Shown: positions 2,887 through 21,518 of the stretch, piece by piece | How the letters are laid out: the number at the start of each line of letters is the position of its first letter | How positions within the stretch are numbered: position 1 is the stretch's first letter | Virus record (IMG/VR): IMGVR_UViG_3300003690_000038 | Location: 6,440 to 37,543 of that record | Direction: 5' to 3' (one strand) | Length of the DNA stretch: 31,104 bases | DNA from: a virus | Position numbers and translations under genes: made by a program | Notes under the pieces: model-generated | Seen by the model: the letters and a program-made list of their open reading frames with translations, nothing else | Databases searched by the model: none | What the model was told of the DNA's origin: nothing

Positions 2887-5244
2887 ATGGCAGAATTTGG
2901 ATGGGGATATATAAGTTGTGGTGGCTTACTTACTGCTAGTGGACCGACTGGCTCTGTTCAGTTTCGCCATGGCGACTTGCTAAGTGATGGAACTTATTAT
3001 ACTTCTATTACTGGAAGTTCTATGTTCACGTTTAATAGTTCTTCCAACAATGTCGGAATTGGCTTAGGCCACGACAATCCTGGCGCAAGATTAGAAATCT
3101 CTGCGAGCGCTGCAGATACTCCTACACTTATTGTAGACGGTAATTCAATTTTTTCTGGATCTCTTGACGTTCAAGGCAACGTGCATGTTTCCGGAACTGT
3201 GTTCGCTACTGAATATCAAGTTCAACATATAACAGCATTGAGTGCTTCGGGTGATTCAAAGTTTGGCGATAGCGCCGGCGATATTCACGAATTTACTGGT
3301 AGTGTAAGAATTTTTGGTAATTTAAGCGCATCTAATGGCATGCAAATTACCGACCATGTTCAGCATAATAATGGGCTTTCAAATTTTAATGGCAACCGAG
3401 TTACTTTCAATTCTGATGTCACTGCGTCAAACGGACTATTGATTCCCGATGACACGTTGTTGAGGTTTGGTACTTCTGCCGGCGATGCTACAATTGAATA
3501 TGATGAGAATGGCACCGACGAACTTAGATTTGCCGGCGCGGCAGTAACGTTTGAGCAGGCTGTTACTTTTGATGCTAACGTTACGCTTGGAGATGCTGCT
3601 GGTGATGTTACGACGGTAACGGGCAAACTAACTGCTTCCAATGGCGCCTACGTTGCCGGCAATGTCGGCCTCGGAACAAGTACCCCGGGCGGCCCACTTC
3701 ACATATACAAGGCTGCTGCCGCCAGCAACCACACACCCATGGAATTACTGAGGCTGGAACAGCAAGATGAAGGCGTTGATATGGACGCTGGACACGGACC
3801 TATGATTACTTTTTACGTTGGAGAAACTGGCGGCTCGGATCACGGCGGCAGTGTGGCGGTTGTTAGAGAAGCAGCCGGCGATGCGGATTCTGCTGCTGCC
3901 ATGTCCTTTTATACTGCGGGCGATGATAGTGCCCCAACAGAAAAAATGCGAATTACCAGCACCGGCAAAGTCGGCATTGGCGTAACAGATCCGGATACAC
4001 AACTTGAAGTGCTCTCGACCTCAACTCAACTTAAGTTATCTTATGATGGCAGCAACTATTCAACGCTGGCTGTTGGTTCTGGTGGCGGTCTAACCATTGA
4101 CGCCTCTAGCCTAACAGTGGCTACTGATCTAACCGCATCGAATGGATTAACAATTCCCGATGATGTCATGCTGAGATTTGGAAATGCCTCCGGTGGCGAT
4201 GTCTATATGGGCTATGACGAAAGTGGCGATGATGTGCTAAAGATTCAAGGCGCCCCATTTAAGTTTAAAGTAGACATTACTGCGTCAAATGGAATAACAA
4301 TTCCCGATGATGTCATGCTGAGATTTGGAAATGCCACCGGCGGCGATGTTTATATGGGCTATGACGAAAGTGGCGATGATGTGCTAAAGATTCAAGGCGC
4401 GCCAGTTAAATTTAAAGTAGACGTTACTGCCTCTAATGGATTGACAGTTCCAGATGATACATTGTTAAGATTTGGAAATGGCAGCGATGCCACGATTGAA
4501 TATGACGAGAACGGCACTGATGAGCTTCGGTTTGCAGGAGCGGCAGTAACATTTGAGCAAGCTGTTACTTTTGACGCAAACGTGACTCTTGGAAATGCAG
4601 TAACAGATGTTACAACTATCAGCGGACAATTGACTGCTTCTAATGGTGTAGTGATTACCAATCACGTTACACATGACAATCTTATTTCAACATTTACTAG
4701 TCAGTTATCTGCTTCTAATGGGCTCCATGTTACTGATCATGTTATACACAATAATGGTATTTCAACATTTAATGGCACTAAGGTTGCTTTCGATACTGAT
4801 GTTACTGCGTCAAATGGAATACGGATTCCTGACGATACATTGTTAAGATTCGGTGTTGGGGCCGGCGATGCCACGATTGAATATGACGAGAACGGCACTG
4901 ATGAGCTTCGGTTTGCAGGAGCGGCAGTAACGTTTGAACAAGCTGTCTCTTTTGACGCCAATGTTACGCTTGGAGATGCCGCCAGCGATGTCACAACAGT
5001 AACGGGTAAACTAACGGCTTCCAATGGCATGTTGATCACAGGAGATCTCCTCCCTGGCGCCGACAACGTACACGATTTGGGCGCTTCTGGTAGCCGTTGG
5101 AAAAATATCTACACTGGCGACCTTCATTTGAAGAATGAGCGCGGCGATTGGACAATTGTTGAGGAGTCTGACTATTTAAGTGTAAGAAACAATAAAACAG
5201 GAAAGCTTTTTAAGCTCGTTCTTGAAGAAGTTGACGAAGAATAA
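2887..5244 (+). CDS. Repeat-built fibre-like structural protein
   Basis: This is a 785-residue protein with fibre architecture. The N-terminus (SGPTGSVQFRHGD, then NVGIGLGHDNPGARLEIS near 55-72) and a second VGIGVTDPDTQLEV block near residue 365 are the VGIG-x-x-x-P type motif found in many phage fibres. Between them are modules of T-A-S-N-G followed by IPDDTLLRFG, DATIEYDENGTDELRFAGA and VTFEQAVTFDANVTLG, present about four times in variant form. The last 60 residues (DLGASGSRWKNIYTGDLHL, then RGDWTIVEE and NKTGKLFKL) form a conserved-looking terminal domain. The gene has an SD-like GGGAG upstream and is followed after 15 bases by a second fibre-like gene that shares the same modules. It lies between head genes, so it may be a capsid-borne fibre instead of a tail fibre; the sequence does not settle this. 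Confidence 0.85.
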   Translation: MAEFGWGYISCGGLLTASGPTGSVQFRHGDLLSDGTYYTSITGSSMFTFNSSSNNVGIGLGHDNPGARLEISASAADTPTLIVDGNSIFSGSLDVQGNVHVSGTVFATEYQVQHITALSASGDSKFGDSAGDIHEFTGSVRIFGNLSASNGMQITDHVQHNNGLSNFNGNRVTFNSDVTASNGLLIPDDTLLRFGTSAGDATIEYDENGTDELRFAGAAVTFEQAVTFDANVTLGDAAGDVTTVTGKLTASNGAYVAGNVGLGTSTPGGPLHIYKAAAASNHTPMELLRLEQQDEGVDMDAGHGPMITFYVGETGGSDHGGSVAVVREAAGDADSAAAMSFYTAGDDSAPTEKMRITSTGKVGIGVTDPDTQLEVLSTSTQLKLSYDGSNYSTLAVGSGGGLTIDASSLTVATDLTASNGLTIPDDVMLRFGNASGGDVYMGYDESGDDVLKIQGAPFKFKVDITASNGITIPDDVMLRFGNATGGDVYMGYDESGDDVLKIQGAPVKFKVDVTASNGLTVPDDTLLRFGNGSDATIEYDENGTDELRFAGAAVTFEQAVTFDANVTLGNAVTDVTTISGQLTASNGVVITNHVTHDNLISTFTSQLSASNGLHVTDHVIHNNGISTFNGTKVAFDTDVTASNGIRIPDDTLLRFGVGAGDATIEYDENGTDELRFAGAAVTFEQAVSFDANVTLGDAASDVTTVTGKLTASNGMLITGDLLPGADNVHDLGASGSRWKNIYTGDLHLKNERGDWTIVEESDYLSVRNNKTGKLFKLVLEEVDEE
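4132..4425 (+). repeat. Tandem pair of 147-base repeats in the fibre-like gene
   Basis: Two head-to-tail copies (4132-4278 and 4279-4425), 147 bases or 49 codons each, differ at only a few positions. Each encodes TASNG, IPDDVMLRFGNA, GGDVYMGYDESGDDVLKIQGAP and FKVD. A third, more diverged copy begins at 4426. The reading frame is kept, so copy number could change without breaking the gene. Confidence 0.9.
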
Positions 5245-5259
5245 AAGGAATTTATATTA

Positions 5260-8200
5260 ATGGCTCTTATTGGTGAAGTAACTGGCTCTGGAGGACTTAC
5301 AGTAACAGGAAGTCTTGTTGTTAGTGGTGCCATATATCTTGGACAACATACCGCCTCCACTCTTACTGTTGCAGATCTTGGATCTGGAGCCGGCGCCGCC
5401 GGCGGTCTTATTTATGTTAAAGGCTCAAAATTATATTTCGTTGGCCAGGACGCCGATGCGGAAACAGCTTTGGGCGGATTGGGCACCGCCCAAACATGGA
5501 CCGCTACTCAAACATTTTCTGAAGTAACCGGCACCAGCGGCTTTCTTGTTGCCGACGACAAAAAGATTTATTTTGGCACGGGCAAGGATGCCTCATTCGA
5601 ATATGATGAAGACGGCACAGATACTCTCTTATATGCCGGCGCCTCCATGAGAATTTCTGATGATACAAAAGTAGAATTTGGTACCGGTGGCGATGCTTCG
5701 ATTGAGTACGATGAAAATGGAACAGATGAGCTTCGTTTTGCCGGCGCTGCCGCAACGTTTGAACAGGCCATTTCTTTTGACGGAAATGTAACCATGGGCC
5801 TTGACGATACTGGAGTCGATGTCAGGATCTACAGCGCCACAACAAATGAAGGCGTATTATACGATGCTTCTGAAGATGAATTGGGGCTACTGCTCACAAC
5901 TAAATTAAAGTTTCATGACATCGGCGGAGCTGAAGAAATCTTTGCCTCTGCAAATGGCCACCTTGAGGTAAATGCAGGCACAACCTTAGATATAACAGCC
6001 CCAACAGTTGATATTAATGCTTCGACAGCGGTAACACTTGATAGCCCCTCTGTCGTTATTGCATCTAGTACAGCAAACAAGCCGCGCTTAGAACTCAAAA
6101 ATACCACCAATGATACAAATAGCGCCATTTTACGATTTGTTAAAGATAAGGGCGCCGCTGGTGCTGCTAATGATAATGTGGGAATAATTGAATTCTATGG
6201 TGATGACGCAAATCAAGATCAGGTTTTATTTGGGCGGATTAGAACTCGTGTCGCTGTACACACTGATGGCCAAGAAGGGGGCAAAATGCAATTCGCAGTC
6301 GCCTCCCACGACGGAGAATTAAATGCTGGTTTAACTATTAGTGATGGTGACGCTGAGGATGAAATTGATGTAACTATTGGAAACGGTTCAGCTTCTAGAA
6401 CAACAGTTAGCGGCGATATGACCATTACGACCATTGCAAATCCTGGCTCTGATGTTGACAAATTCTTGGTTTCTAATAGTGGGGTTGTTGGTTACAGAAC
6501 TGGCGCCGAAGTTGCTTCTGACATCGGCGCCGTGGCCTCTGATGCAAATATCACATTCAGTGGAAAACTAACGGCTTCAAATGGCATGCTGATTCCTGAT
6601 GATGTTTTCTTAGCGTTTGGTACCGATGAAAATGTTACAATCGAATACGATGAGGATGGCAACGATACATTAATTATTACAGGCGCGCCAGTTATAGTTG
6701 CCGCTGATCTAACAGCATCAAATGGGCTCTCAACTACGGTTGTCTCAGCTTCAAGCAACGTTCTGATTGGTGGAGCGTTAGCAGTTGATGGCGATGCTGA
6801 TTTCGATGGTCGCTTGATTGTCTCTGGCGCTGCAATATTTGGTAGCGTTGCTGCAGCAGGCGCCGATACAGACAAGTTCCTTGTCTTGGGCATCGATGCC
6901 ACCGGGCTGAATACACTACAATACAGAGCCGGCTCAGATGTCGCTTCTGACATCGGCGCCGTGGCCTCTGACGCAAACATTACATTCAGTGGAAAGCTAA
7001 CGGCTTCAAACGGCATGCTGATTCCTGATGATGTTTTCTTAACATTTGGTACCGATGAAAATGTTACAATCGAATACGATGAGGATGGCAATGACACACT
7101 GATTATAACAGGCGCGCCAGTTATAGTGGCTGCTGATTTGACAGCCTCAAACGGTCTTAGCACAACAACTATTTCAGCCTCCAGCAATGTAGACATTGGG
7201 GGTACATTATCTGTAGATGGCGTTGCAGACTTCGATGCGCGCGTAAATGTTTCAGGCGCCTTTGAAGCTGCTAGTTCTGCAGTGTTTTTTGGCCAGCTAA
7301 CAGCATCGAACGGTATGTCTATTACAGGCGACGTTTCCGCTTCCAGTGATTTTATGATCGGTGGTGGCCTGCATGTTGACGGCGATGCTGATTTCGATGG
7401 TCGCTTGATTGTCTCTGGCGCTGCAATATTTGGTACCGTTGCTGCAGCAGGCGCAGATACAGATAAGTTTCTTGTACTAGGCGTTGATGCAACAGGTCTG
7501 AACACTCTACAGTACAGAGCGGGATCGGATGTTGCCTCTGATATCGGCGCAGTCGCCGCAGACGCCAATATCACATTCAGTGGAAAACTAACGGCTTCAA
7601 ATGGGTTTACTGTTACGGGAGACGCATTAATGCTTGCCGATGGGGTAGTGTCTTATATTGGCACCGGCGGCGATTTGGCGATGTTTCATAATGGTACAGA
7701 TTCAATAATTCAAAATAGCACTGGCGATTTTAAGATACTTTCAACTGTAAATTCCGCAGATGCGATCTTCATTGAGGTTGATGGCGGAACATCAGAAACA
7801 ATCACAATCCACTCCGATCAAGGAACATCTGTAACCGAAGGCGCCTCATCTATTCAATTGCTTTCAGATGCCGGCGGTGTTGAACTTAAATCAACAGCAA
7901 ATTTAGCCAAATCAATTAAATTAATTGCCGATGGCGGTGCGGCCGAAACAATTTACATTCAAGCAGATCAAGGAACCACTTCTGGTTCAATCCATCTGGT
8001 TTCAGATGCTGGCGGAATTAAATTTGAAGCGGCTGCCGTTTCACACGTTCATGATTTTGCATCCACTGCGCCGCTTTCAATAGCCTCATATGATACCGAT
8101 GGCGATTATGGCGGAACAATTCTAAAATATTCCCCAGGAGCAGACGACACATTAAATGTCGGACAATTGTACTTCCTGCATACTGATGGAACTTGGGACC

Positions 8201-8511
8201 AATGTGATGCAGACGCTGTTGCCACCGGCGGAAAACAATTGCTTGGAGTTGGACTAGGTGGCGCCCGATCAGATGGTGTATTAATTAAAGGATTTATTAG
8301 AATTCCCTCAACAGAAATTTTGAATGTTCCTGGCTCAAATGCCAGTCCTGGTTTGCCGGTTTATATATCTACCACTGCTGGTCATTTTGATTTTACTGCT
8401 CCAAGCGGAGATGGCGACATCGTTCGAATTGTTGGATATGCAATCCAAGATAGCACAGATGTATTAATTTATTTTGATCCTGATCCAACTTATGTTGAGG
8501 TCAGTGCATAA
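5260..8511 (+). CDS. Second, larger repeat-built fibre-like protein
   Basis: This 1083-residue protein is related to its upstream neighbour through shared modules, for example DASIEYDENGTDELRFAGA near residues 145-165 and repeated LTASNGMLIPDDVFL blocks. Other repeated units are DIGAVASDANITFSGKLTASNG (three times) and VDGDADFDGRLIVSGAAIFG (twice). The N-terminus GSGGLTVTGSLVVSGAIYLG also fits a beta-helical or trimeric fibre. The last 115 or so residues (SPGADDTLNVGQLYFL to DSTDVLIYFDPDPTYVEVSA) are free of repeats and look like a compact beta-rich tip domain. AAGGAA precedes the ATG. The stop overlaps the next ATG by one base (TAATG), so the following gene is probably translationally coupled. 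Role inferred: a virion fibre or adhesin. Confidence 0.85.
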   Translation: MALIGEVTGSGGLTVTGSLVVSGAIYLGQHTASTLTVADLGSGAGAAGGLIYVKGSKLYFVGQDADAETALGGLGTAQTWTATQTFSEVTGTSGFLVADDKKIYFGTGKDASFEYDEDGTDTLLYAGASMRISDDTKVEFGTGGDASIEYDENGTDELRFAGAAATFEQAISFDGNVTMGLDDTGVDVRIYSATTNEGVLYDASEDELGLLLTTKLKFHDIGGAEEIFASANGHLEVNAGTTLDITAPTVDINASTAVTLDSPSVVIASSTANKPRLELKNTTNDTNSAILRFVKDKGAAGAANDNVGIIEFYGDDANQDQVLFGRIRTRVAVHTDGQEGGKMQFAVASHDGELNAGLTISDGDAEDEIDVTIGNGSASRTTVSGDMTITTIANPGSDVDKFLVSNSGVVGYRTGAEVASDIGAVASDANITFSGKLTASNGMLIPDDVFLAFGTDENVTIEYDEDGNDTLIITGAPVIVAADLTASNGLSTTVVSASSNVLIGGALAVDGDADFDGRLIVSGAAIFGSVAAAGADTDKFLVLGIDATGLNTLQYRAGSDVASDIGAVASDANITFSGKLTASNGMLIPDDVFLTFGTDENVTIEYDEDGNDTLIITGAPVIVAADLTASNGLSTTTISASSNVDIGGTLSVDGVADFDARVNVSGAFEAASSAVFFGQLTASNGMSITGDVSASSDFMIGGGLHVDGDADFDGRLIVSGAAIFGTVAAAGADTDKFLVLGVDATGLNTLQYRAGSDVASDIGAVAADANITFSGKLTASNGFTVTGDALMLADGVVSYIGTGGDLAMFHNGTDSIIQNSTGDFKILSTVNSADAIFIEVDGGTSETITIHSDQGTSVTEGASSIQLLSDAGGVELKSTANLAKSIKLIADGGAAETIYIQADQGTTSGSIHLVSDAGGIKFEAAAVSHVHDFASTAPLSIASYDTDGDYGGTILKYSPGADDTLNVGQLYFLHTDGTWDQCDADAVATGGKQLLGVGLGGARSDGVLIKGFIRIPSTEILNVPGSNASPGLPVYISTTAGHFDFTAPSGDGDIVRIVGYAIQDSTDVLIYFDPDPTYVEVSA
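6514..7605 (+). repeat. Long internal repeats in the second fibre-like gene
   Basis: Blocks beginning GCTTCTGACATCGGCGCCGT recur at 6514 and 6943 (429 bases apart, 143 codons) and in diverged form at 7534 (a further 591 bases). A block beginning GTTGATGGCGATGCTGATTT at 6784 recurs at 7375, also 591 bases apart. The extra 162 bases in the second interval correspond to an inserted 54-codon module (near 7210-7370). All intervals keep the reading frame. Confidence 0.88.
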
Positions 8512-19483: not shown

Positions 19484-20074
19484 ATGGCATTCTGGACAGG
19501 AGTAGCGGGAGCAAACGACCCCAAAAGAGATTTTAGATTTGTGTTGACAATTTCAGATATAGCAGGCAAATTGGACACTATGTGGATGGCGAAGAAAGTT
19601 GATCGCCCTAGTTTTCAGATCAGTGAATCTGAGCACAAATTCTTAAACCACTCTTTCTTTTACCCCGGTAAAGTTACGTGGCAAGATGTTACATGCACTG
19701 TGGTGGACCCCGGCGGAGACACCGATATTATGGATGGTATAGCAGATATGCTTACCCGGTCTGGATATGCAGTACCTAACACTGCAGGTAATCTAACTTC
19801 AATTTCCAAATCAAAAGCCATGGCGGCTCTTGGTACTGTGACTATCCATGTCATTGGAGCTGATCACAATGTTTCCGATGAGAGCCAGGCGGAACCCCAA
19901 ATTCTGGAGTCTTGGACCCTTCAGCAAGCATGGGTTAAAGAATTTAAACCATCATCGATGGATTACGATGGCGATAATTTATCTACAATCGACATTACGT
20001 TCAAATATGATTGGGCTACGTTGAATGCTGACGCGTCCGGCTCCCCCTCCAAGTATTGGAGCGTTAGCGGGTAG
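19484..20074 (+). CDS. gp19: Tail tube protein, T4 gp19-like
   Basis: This 196-residue protein is similar in size to T4 gp19 (163). It follows the sheath gene directly and has the tube-family pattern: FRFVLTISDIAGKLDTMWMAKKVDRPSF, then HKFLNHSFFYPGKVTWQDVT and a C-terminal block STIDITFKYDWATLNAD. Tube hexamers stack to form the inner tail channel. It has a strong AAGGAGAT box, and TACTATATAATA lies upstream (19454-19465), which could be a weak promoter. The last 38 bases of the gene, including the stop codon, are repeated exactly at 20543-20580 inside a chimeric mini-ORF. Confidence 0.93.
   Translation: MAFWTGVAGANDPKRDFRFVLTISDIAGKLDTMWMAKKVDRPSFQISESEHKFLNHSFFYPGKVTWQDVTCTVVDPGGDTDIMDGIADMLTRSGYAVPNTAGNLTSISKSKAMAALGTVTIHVIGADHNVSDESQAEPQILESWTLQQAWVKEFKPSSMDYDGDNLSTIDITFKYDWATLNADASGSPSKYWSVSG
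20037..20074 (+). repeat. 38-base direct repeat, copy 1 (3' end of tube gene)
   Basis: The terminal 38 bases of the tube gene (CCGGCTCCCCCTCC to AGCGGGTAG) are identical to 20543-20580. Flanking bases differ on both sides (T and CGCC here; G and TAAC at the second copy), so the repeat limits are sharp. Confidence 0.95.
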
Positions 20075-20098
20075 CGCCCGCATTTTAGGAATAATAAA

Positions 20099-20431
20099 AT
20101 GAAAATTACAAAATCACAATTGAGAAAAATTATCAAGGAAGAACTGGAAACGGTTTTAAACGAGGCCGATCCAATGGCTCGTATGTATAGAAAGCAACAG
20201 CCACAAGCAGCTGCAAAGGCACCTGCTGCACCTGCTGCAGCTGCAGCACAAAAAGAGTATCCCCCTGAGTGTGCTGAAGTTCGCGCTAAAGCAAAAAAAA
20301 TTAATCTTGATGCTCAGCAAGCAGAACGCGAAGATTATACGGGCGCTGGTTATGGTATGCAAGCGAGATTCATGGCTAATGAAGAACTTGATGGGCTTGC
20401 AAAAAAACACCCGCAGTGTTTTGGAAAATAA
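20099..20431 (+). CDS. Small protein with capsid-targeting-like N-terminus
   Basis: This is a 110-residue protein. Residues 1-22 (MKITKSQLRKIIKEELETVL, then NE) match the start of the ParB-fold protein at 704 almost position for position, ending in the same L-N-E at residues 20-22, followed by Ala. Next comes a basic piece (MARMYRKQQ), an Ala/Pro linker (about residues 37-50), and a short charged C-terminal domain with two cysteines (YPPECAEVRAKAKKI, KKHPQCFGK). I recognise no enzymatic family. The N-terminus suggests prohead entry and cleavage after Glu22, which would release a mature piece of about 88 residues. It sits in a disturbed stretch between tube and hub genes. TAGGAAT precedes the ATG. 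Confidence 0.75.
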   Translation: MKITKSQLRKIIKEELETVLNEADPMARMYRKQQPQAAAKAPAAPAAAAAQKEYPPECAEVRAKAKKINLDAQQAEREDYTGAGYGMQARFMANEELDGLAKKHPQCFGK

Positions 20432-20526
20432 ACAATGTCTAAACAACTTTTACGAGAATACTATGAACTGTGCGAAGGCGGCGTTTGCAAAGATCTTTTA
20501 AACGAAGAAGAGAAAAGATATGTGGC

Positions 20527-20548
20527 AGCCGGCGGCATGCCGCCGGCT
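20527..20548. repeat. Perfect 22-base palindrome at the chimeric junction
   Basis: AGCCGGCGGCA (20527-20537) is followed by its exact reverse complement (20538-20548). It spans the point where gp21-like sequence (ending GGCGGCATG at 20539) passes into gp19-like sequence (from 20543). As RNA it would form a very GC-rich hairpin, but no T-run follows, so it is not an ordinary terminator. Confidence 0.95.
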
Positions 20549-20580
20549 CCCCCTCCAAGTATTGGAGCGTTAGCGGGTAG
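20543..20580 (+). repeat. 38-base direct repeat, copy 2
   Basis: These 38 bases are identical to 20037-20074. Here the segment lies inside the chimeric mini-ORF in a different reading frame, so the former tube-gene TAG is not read as a stop. The copies are 506 bases apart. Confidence 0.95.
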
Positions 20581-20645
20581 TAACAGATACGAGATATCTA
20601 ATCTATAATAAAAAAATGCAAATTAACAAAAAAGAGAGGTGAAAT

Positions 20646-21518
20646 TTGCCAAGAAACAATCAAAATCGGATTGGTTCAACAAATGTAACAAACACTGCAG
20701 CGGAAACCCCGCCGGCGCAAAATAGAGACTCAAGCTTTGATCCTTTATCCTTTGTTACCCCAACCGAATTCATAGAGCTGCCCTCAAAGGGCCTATTTTA
20801 TCCAGAGGGGCATCCTTTGCATATGCAAGAAAGTCTTGAAATAAGATTTATGACCGCAAAGGATGAGGATATTCTTACTTCTAGAACATTGCTAAAGCAA
20901 GGTGTTGCTATCGAACGGTTCTTGCAAAATATTATCATTGATAGGCGCGTTGATGTTAGAGACATGCTTGTTGGTGACAAAAATGCAATCATTGTTGCAG
21001 CAAGATCCACTGGCTATGGTAGTGATTATGAGACAAAAATTACATGCCCCGCATGTCAATCTGTTAATGAATTTACTTTTGATCTAACAAATGCTAAAGT
21101 GTATCATGGGGACAGCGATTCGTTAACGAAATATGATATACACAGAACCGATAATGGTACGTTTATTTTAAGACTGCCGGTATATCAAATTGATGTCGAG
21201 CTTAGATTATTAACAGGAAAAGATGAAACAGCCATGATTAAGCAAATGGAGGCCAATAAAAAGAATAACAAGCCAGAAGGAACTATTTCAGAACAGATCA
21301 GACGCATGTTGGTTTCGGTTAACAGTGAAGCCGATTCTAAATTGATCAGGCACGTTATGGATAATATGCCTACAAAAGACACGCAATTTCTTCGTAGAGT
21401 TTATAAATTACTCGTTCCAAATGTAGATCTTACGCACGAATTTCAGTGCACCGCTTGTAATTATGAAGGCGTATTGGAGGTTCCGTTTACAGCGGACTTT
21501 TTTTGGCCTAACCGATAA
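20646..21518 (+). CDS. gp26: Baseplate hub assembly protein, T4 gp26-like
   Basis: This 290-residue protein is longer than T4 gp26 (208). The start is a TTG at 20646 with AGAGAGGTG just upstream; no nearby in-frame ATG fits. After a disordered N-terminus, the FIELPSKGLFYPEGHPL block (42-58) and EIRFMTAKDEDILTSRTLLKQG (65-86) are typical of the T4 baseplate gp26 family. CPAC (134-137) and CTAC (268-271) form a likely split zinc-ribbon. T4 gp26 acts in hub assembly, which precedes tail tube growth. A small ORF overlaps the end in the +1 frame and its ATG lies 4 bases after the stop; a run of seven T at 21498-21504 lies just before it, so a frameshifted longer product is possible. Confidence 0.82.
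   Translation: MPRNNQNRIGSTNVTNTAAETPPAQNRDSSFDPLSFVTPTEFIELPSKGLFYPEGHPLHMQESLEIRFMTAKDEDILTSRTLLKQGVAIERFLQNIIIDRRVDVRDMLVGDKNAIIVAARSTGYGSDYETKITCPACQSVNEFTFDLTNAKVYHGDSDSLTKYDIHRTDNGTFILRLPVYQIDVELRLLTGKDETAMIKQMEANKKNNKPEGTISEQIRRMLVSVNSEADSKLIRHVMDNMPTKDTQFLRRVYKLLVPNVDLTHEFQCTACNYEGVLEVPFTADFFWPNR
21498..21504 (+). other. Run of seven T, possible programmed frameshift site
   Basis: The codons are GAC TTT TTT TGG in the gp26-like frame, five codons before its stop. A +1 or -2 slip here would enter the next ORF at GLTDKYMELIYEQ without meeting a stop; a -1 slip stops after two codons. Tail assembly chaperone genes just upstream of tape measures are known to use slips of this kind. No experiment or secondary structure analysis supports it yet. 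Confidence 0.3.

Follow-up and report, generated by a model that had tools for sequence, protein, structure and literature searches.

Gene order around the tail tube gene

The window, meaning the whole stretch of 31,104 nucleotides that was analysed, comprises bases 6440 to 37543 of the 37,543-base record of a marine T4-like phage. Coordinates below are those of the window unless stated otherwise, and all features lie on the plus strand. Searches against Pfam and PHROGs gave the order portal (PF07230), gp21 protease (PF03420), gp23 capsid (PF07068), sheath (PF04984/PF17482), tube (phrog_4542) and T4_baseplate (PF12322). The gp19-like tail tube gene (19484-20074; phrog_4542 tail tube, E = 2.2e-17) is intact, and its last 38 nt are duplicated further downstream. 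Its native downstream neighbour is the baseplate hub gene (T4_baseplate, 20646-21518; PF12322, E = 2.8e-13). Between these two genes lie ORF110 (20099-20431), a small cargo gene with the leader MKITKSQLRKIIKEELETVLNE, and ORF57 (20435-20608), an open frame of 57 aa that begins like a gp21 gene.

The phage's own gp21 prohead protease gene (102-698, 198 aa, Peptidase_S77; PF03420, E = 1.2e-32) is also intact, and relatives align with it from the ATG at 102. Two paralogous leader genes stand in tandem just upstream of it, and the second contains a run of N (G000:C1:6404-6439 of the record) flanked by repeated GCCGTT, a possible scaffold join. Elsewhere in the window, positions 2887-8511 hold long ORFs, possibly for tail fibres or other appendages, with numerous internal repeats that have diverged from one another (as long as 300 nt at 84% identity).

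ORF57 opens with 35 gp21 codons from a relative

The first-pass annotation, made from the letters of the window, had described the first 105 bases of ORF57 as about 86% like the start of the protease gene. This was borne out: 20435-20539 was identical to 102-206 at 90/105 nt, the match could be extended to 96/112 (20428-20539 against 95-206; BLAST E = 6e-31), and the next best ungapped placement of the 112-nt piece anywhere in the window reached 54/112. The best head match in the fetched loci, 93/105, was to L008, and the exact donor was not found among these loci. The description of the differences as mostly synonymous held weakly. Eight of the 15 differing coding bases lie in silent codons and the dN/dS against the own gp21 was ~0.14, but the other seven fall in five replaced codons (K4Q, Q19K, T23N, D25E and N32A). 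With each of the five new residues also present in the intact gp21 of one relative or another, there is no sign of decay, and the fragment resembles part of a functional gene more than a degraded one.

The gp21 part of ORF57 is truncated at a conserved GGM and comprises the 35 N-terminal residues; the protease domain with the catalytic residues is absent. The C-terminal 22 aa are an out-of-frame reading of the tube end and spacer. ORF57 had no Pfam or PHROG match. A conserved short gene, which the first-pass annotation had named as an outcome that would count against it, was rejected, as all 161 gp21 starts in related loci are followed by the protease body and no head stands without one.

The fragment belongs to a collinear foreign block

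Orthologues of ORF110 were found directly upstream of gp21 in four relatives, with 83/107 (L320), 80/110 (L321) and 77/110 (L322) identical amino acids and a shorter one in L009. In all four, as in the insert, the orthologue is preceded by the stem-loop GCGGGTNNNGCCCGC and by the same ribosome-binding region, and the same short spacer separates it from the gp21 ATG. In the fetched loci, the stem-loop occurs 52 times, 45 of them no more than 1.3 kb ahead of gp21 and 7 in other places. The whole record contains it at the native gp21 cassette and the insert site only, that is, at a module boundary in each case: upstream of gp21 and at the left end of the insert. Because the ORF110-gp21 order behind the stem-loop is shared with these four relatives, 20066-20539 is one collinear copy of a native gp21 neighbourhood, consisting of a relative's stem-loop, ORF110 and first 35 gp21 codons. 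This agrees with one of the two origins proposed in the first-pass annotation, a fragment gained from a relative.

The block is foreign, since a different cassette allele precedes the phage's own gp21. A copy of that gene was considered and rejected: the native site is preceded by two other leader genes and has no ORF110. In many loci (for example L245, L253 and L320), a conserved microgene ending in WTxKWMLQPVRRCCKGS and a stop lies directly upstream of gp21, often followed by the GCGGGT stem-loop.

Both junctions carry short parental matches

The last 38 nt of the tube gene (20037-20074), with a CTCCAA/TTGGAG stem-loop, recur exactly at 20543-20580 (direct repeat D15). At the junction on the left, 8 nt are common to the end of the tube gene, ...GCGGGTAG, and the stem-loop of the donor, GCGGGTAGCGCCCGC (20067-20081), whose 5' arm overlaps the tube end. 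At the right junction, the donor sequence stops at ...GCCGGCGGCATG, after which relatives go on with ATTTT, and is followed by CCG and then by the tube's CCGGCTCCC... (donor ...GGCATG + CCG + tube CCGGCT...). The result is the perfect 22-nt palindrome AGCCGGCGGCATGCCGCCGGCT (20527-20548), at a place where relatives read GGCATGATTTT; only one perfect palindrome in the window is longer. The parental matches are thus short at both junctions, GCGGGTAG (8 nt) on the left and CCGGCT (6 nt) on the right, and the proposed switch points would account for both the 38-nt duplication and the palindrome. A stable foldback is present at each junction site, which fits fork stalling. The exact tube copy, the palindrome and the membership of ORF110 in the same foreign block had been omitted from the first-pass annotation.

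The exact tube-end motif had no match in other viral contigs, and a search of 19900-20800 against Rfam gave none. Sigma-70-like sites, scored with a consensus that may not be the host's, numbered 4 in all versus 1.4 expected; those on the plus strand lie only at 19982 and 20580, and neither of these stands beside the stem-loop.

The tube-baseplate interval of relatives is free of gp21

Both the tube and the baseplate genes were present in 129 loci, of which 106 were distinct. The gap between the two genes did not exceed 100 nt in 102 of the 106 distinct intervals, and the 4 longer ones hold a second gene, tube-like by eye, as in L005. Neither gp21 nor a remnant of it was found in any of the 106. 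If the insert is not counted, the gap here is 65 nt, within the range of the relatives. Nine of nine long relatives (111-204 kb) carry a single gp21 and a single T4_baseplate gene, both on one strand, and gp21 precedes the baseplate gene by 13-24 kb; portal-gp21-capsid-sheath-tube-baseplate is the standing order in the clade. The gp21-free intervals, the single upstream gp21 and the lack of orphan heads among the relatives indicate that the interval is not a former gp21 site.

The closest gp21 relatives (~90% identity) are short contigs ending before the tube gene, and the nearest tube-bearing relatives are ~55% identical in the sheath. The tube protein had no match in the cultured-phage collection, and the sheath had no relative in GTDB genomes. 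A second tube-like gene follows the tube gene in tandem at L005:7981-9091 and in L194, L195, L216 and L180.

ORF110 carries a widespread leader peptide

ORF110 is intact, and its leader ends in L-N-E followed by A. In the fetched loci, a collection partly biased towards the leader, this leader was common to 176 distinct proteins in ~125 unrelated tail clusters, and 114 of the 176 have [LI]xE at residues 15-34. In T4, gp21 substrates are cut after L/I-x-E, and the gp21 propeptides are suspected to direct the protease to the prohead (PMC9026906). The ORF110 leader is common to unrelated proteins and has an L/I-x-E site, as a CTS-bearing internal head protein requires. Judged by sequence, the leader has the look of a targeting propeptide widely used by marine T4-like phages, and ORF110 is most likely an internal head protein, gained as a second cargo.

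The leader consensus is MKITKxQLKxIIKEEL...LNE, and its bearers include one protein like a P-loop kinase and one like ParB. It was seen at 704-1729 and 20099-20431 of the window, at L007:5434-5958, at L324:10001 and 10498 and in many other loci. A literature search for this consensus found no paper naming it.

Origin and age of the insert

We consider it very probable that template switching during mixed infection recently brought in an insertion of 506 nt (about 20075-20580) from a related phage, and that ORF57 is its right-hand end. The identity and order of the block, the duplication, the junction sequences and the absence of the insert from the sampled relatives are the observations from which we infer this route and setting. 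At the stop codon of the tube gene, copying would have switched, by way of the 8-nt match, to the related phage's pre-gp21 stem-loop, and would then have run over the donor stem-loop, the leader-bearing small gene and the first 35 gp21 codons. CATG is self-complementary, and a brief inverted copy made there probably gave CCGCCGGCT and the 6-nt match to the tube gene, by which copying would have switched back. As the point of return lies 38 nt upstream of the point of departure, the tube end would be duplicated. The 22-nt palindrome could instead come from a 3-nt untemplated CCG. These steps would leave the tube end in duplicate, ORF110 as an additional intact cargo gene and the gp21 head as a dead fragment, and we take ORF57 to be a by-product without function. 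The empty site would read tube TAG and then TAACAGATACG.

The two copies of the 38-nt repeat, which was formed by the insertion, show 0 differences, so the insertion is recent; the bound on its age is loose because the repeat has only 38 nt. The first-pass annotation was mistaken in arguing from the divergence against a very recent copy. The 14% divergence is that of the donor lineage and already existed between donor and recipient before the insertion.

A broader proposal is offered tentatively, and we regard it as rather unlikely. In marine T4-like phages, leader-tagged internal head proteins may be exchanged as cargo at the site between the stem-loop and gp21, where the stem-loop would promote template switching and cassettes would reach new sites. 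The window would then hold one that has just landed in the tail-gene cluster.

Alternative explanations

In T4, gene 21 lies downstream of gene 19, and the fragment occupies the same relative position. The first-pass annotation had accordingly suggested a fossil of an ancestral 18-19-20-21-22-23 order, in which gp21 once followed the tube gene and left its start behind when it moved upstream. This explanation is scarcely credible. Its proposed test was an intact 20/21 block in the tube-baseplate interval of relatives; however, gp21 lies upstream of the tail genes in all nine long relatives, and the 106 intervals are empty or hold the second tube-like gene. The fragment is moreover accompanied by the cassette gene and stem-loop of the upstream location, and the 38-nt duplication is undiverged. 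An assembly or library chimera of two co-occurring phages is improbable, although the sequence is a metagenomic contig, its record has two N-runs (1609-1615 and 6404-6439, the second ending just before the window) and an exact 38-nt repeat flanks the insert. The window itself is free of N. Graph misassembly needs shared k-mers and is unlikely, as the 8 and 6 nt shared by the parents at the junctions are too short for k-mer graph joins, while a library chimera would need two switches, a return within 38 nt of the departure and, in addition, to become the consensus.

It is very unlikely that ORF57 is a functional second gene, whose small product would retain the gp21 propeptide in order to enter the prohead. 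Its frame is open and starts where the donor gene does, and the 35 retained residues include a likely propeptide with an L-x-E gp21-type site; in T4 such propeptides are suspected prohead targeting signals (PMC9026906). However, its C-terminal part is derived from tube end and spacer, the whole ORF has no homologue in the fetched loci, Pfam or PHROGs, and 57 open codons are no evidence of selection in so recent an insertion. We also find it hard to believe in a site-specific mobile element, a transposon- or integron-like cassette with the 38-nt repeat as its target-site duplication. An ORF-bearing insert does lie between direct repeats and has stem-loops at both ends, but it contains no recombinase and ends at an arbitrary codon inside gp21, and the native-site copies of relatives lack the 38-nt repeat. 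A target duplication of 38 nt is, furthermore, long for a transposase.

Comparison with known systems

The insertion from a related phage is ordinary mosaicism with unusually clear junctions: both breakpoints can be read at base level and the source locus is identified. It suggests that the position upstream of gp21 holds variable cassettes and that many unrelated phage proteins have a leader peptide in common, and with it the evidence that had been suggested for a moved protease gene falls away. Compared with the T4 gp21 prohead protease, the first 35 codons of the fragment derive from a gp21 gene, but the fragment lacks the catalytic domain and is not a protease gene. ORF110 resembles the T4 internal proteins IPI, IPII and IPIII, which bear capsid targeting sequences, in its short leader ending in L-N-E before A, like gp21 substrates, and in the variable cargo behind a common leader.

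Stem-loop cassettes mediate shuffling between T4-like phages, according to work cited in PMC4503421. The insert shares with the PeSL cassettes described there a stem-loop at the cassette boundary that coincides with the recombination point, but it concerns the late head-gene region and a single ectopic event. T4 is also known to rearrange at microhomologies of 6-10 bp (PMC9391042). Such rearrangements, including the dmd-tifA amplification, resemble the present one in their 6-10 bp junctions, duplicated segment and origin in replication or repair. However, those of T4 took place within one genome, whereas the insert described here came from another phage and lies at an ectopic site.
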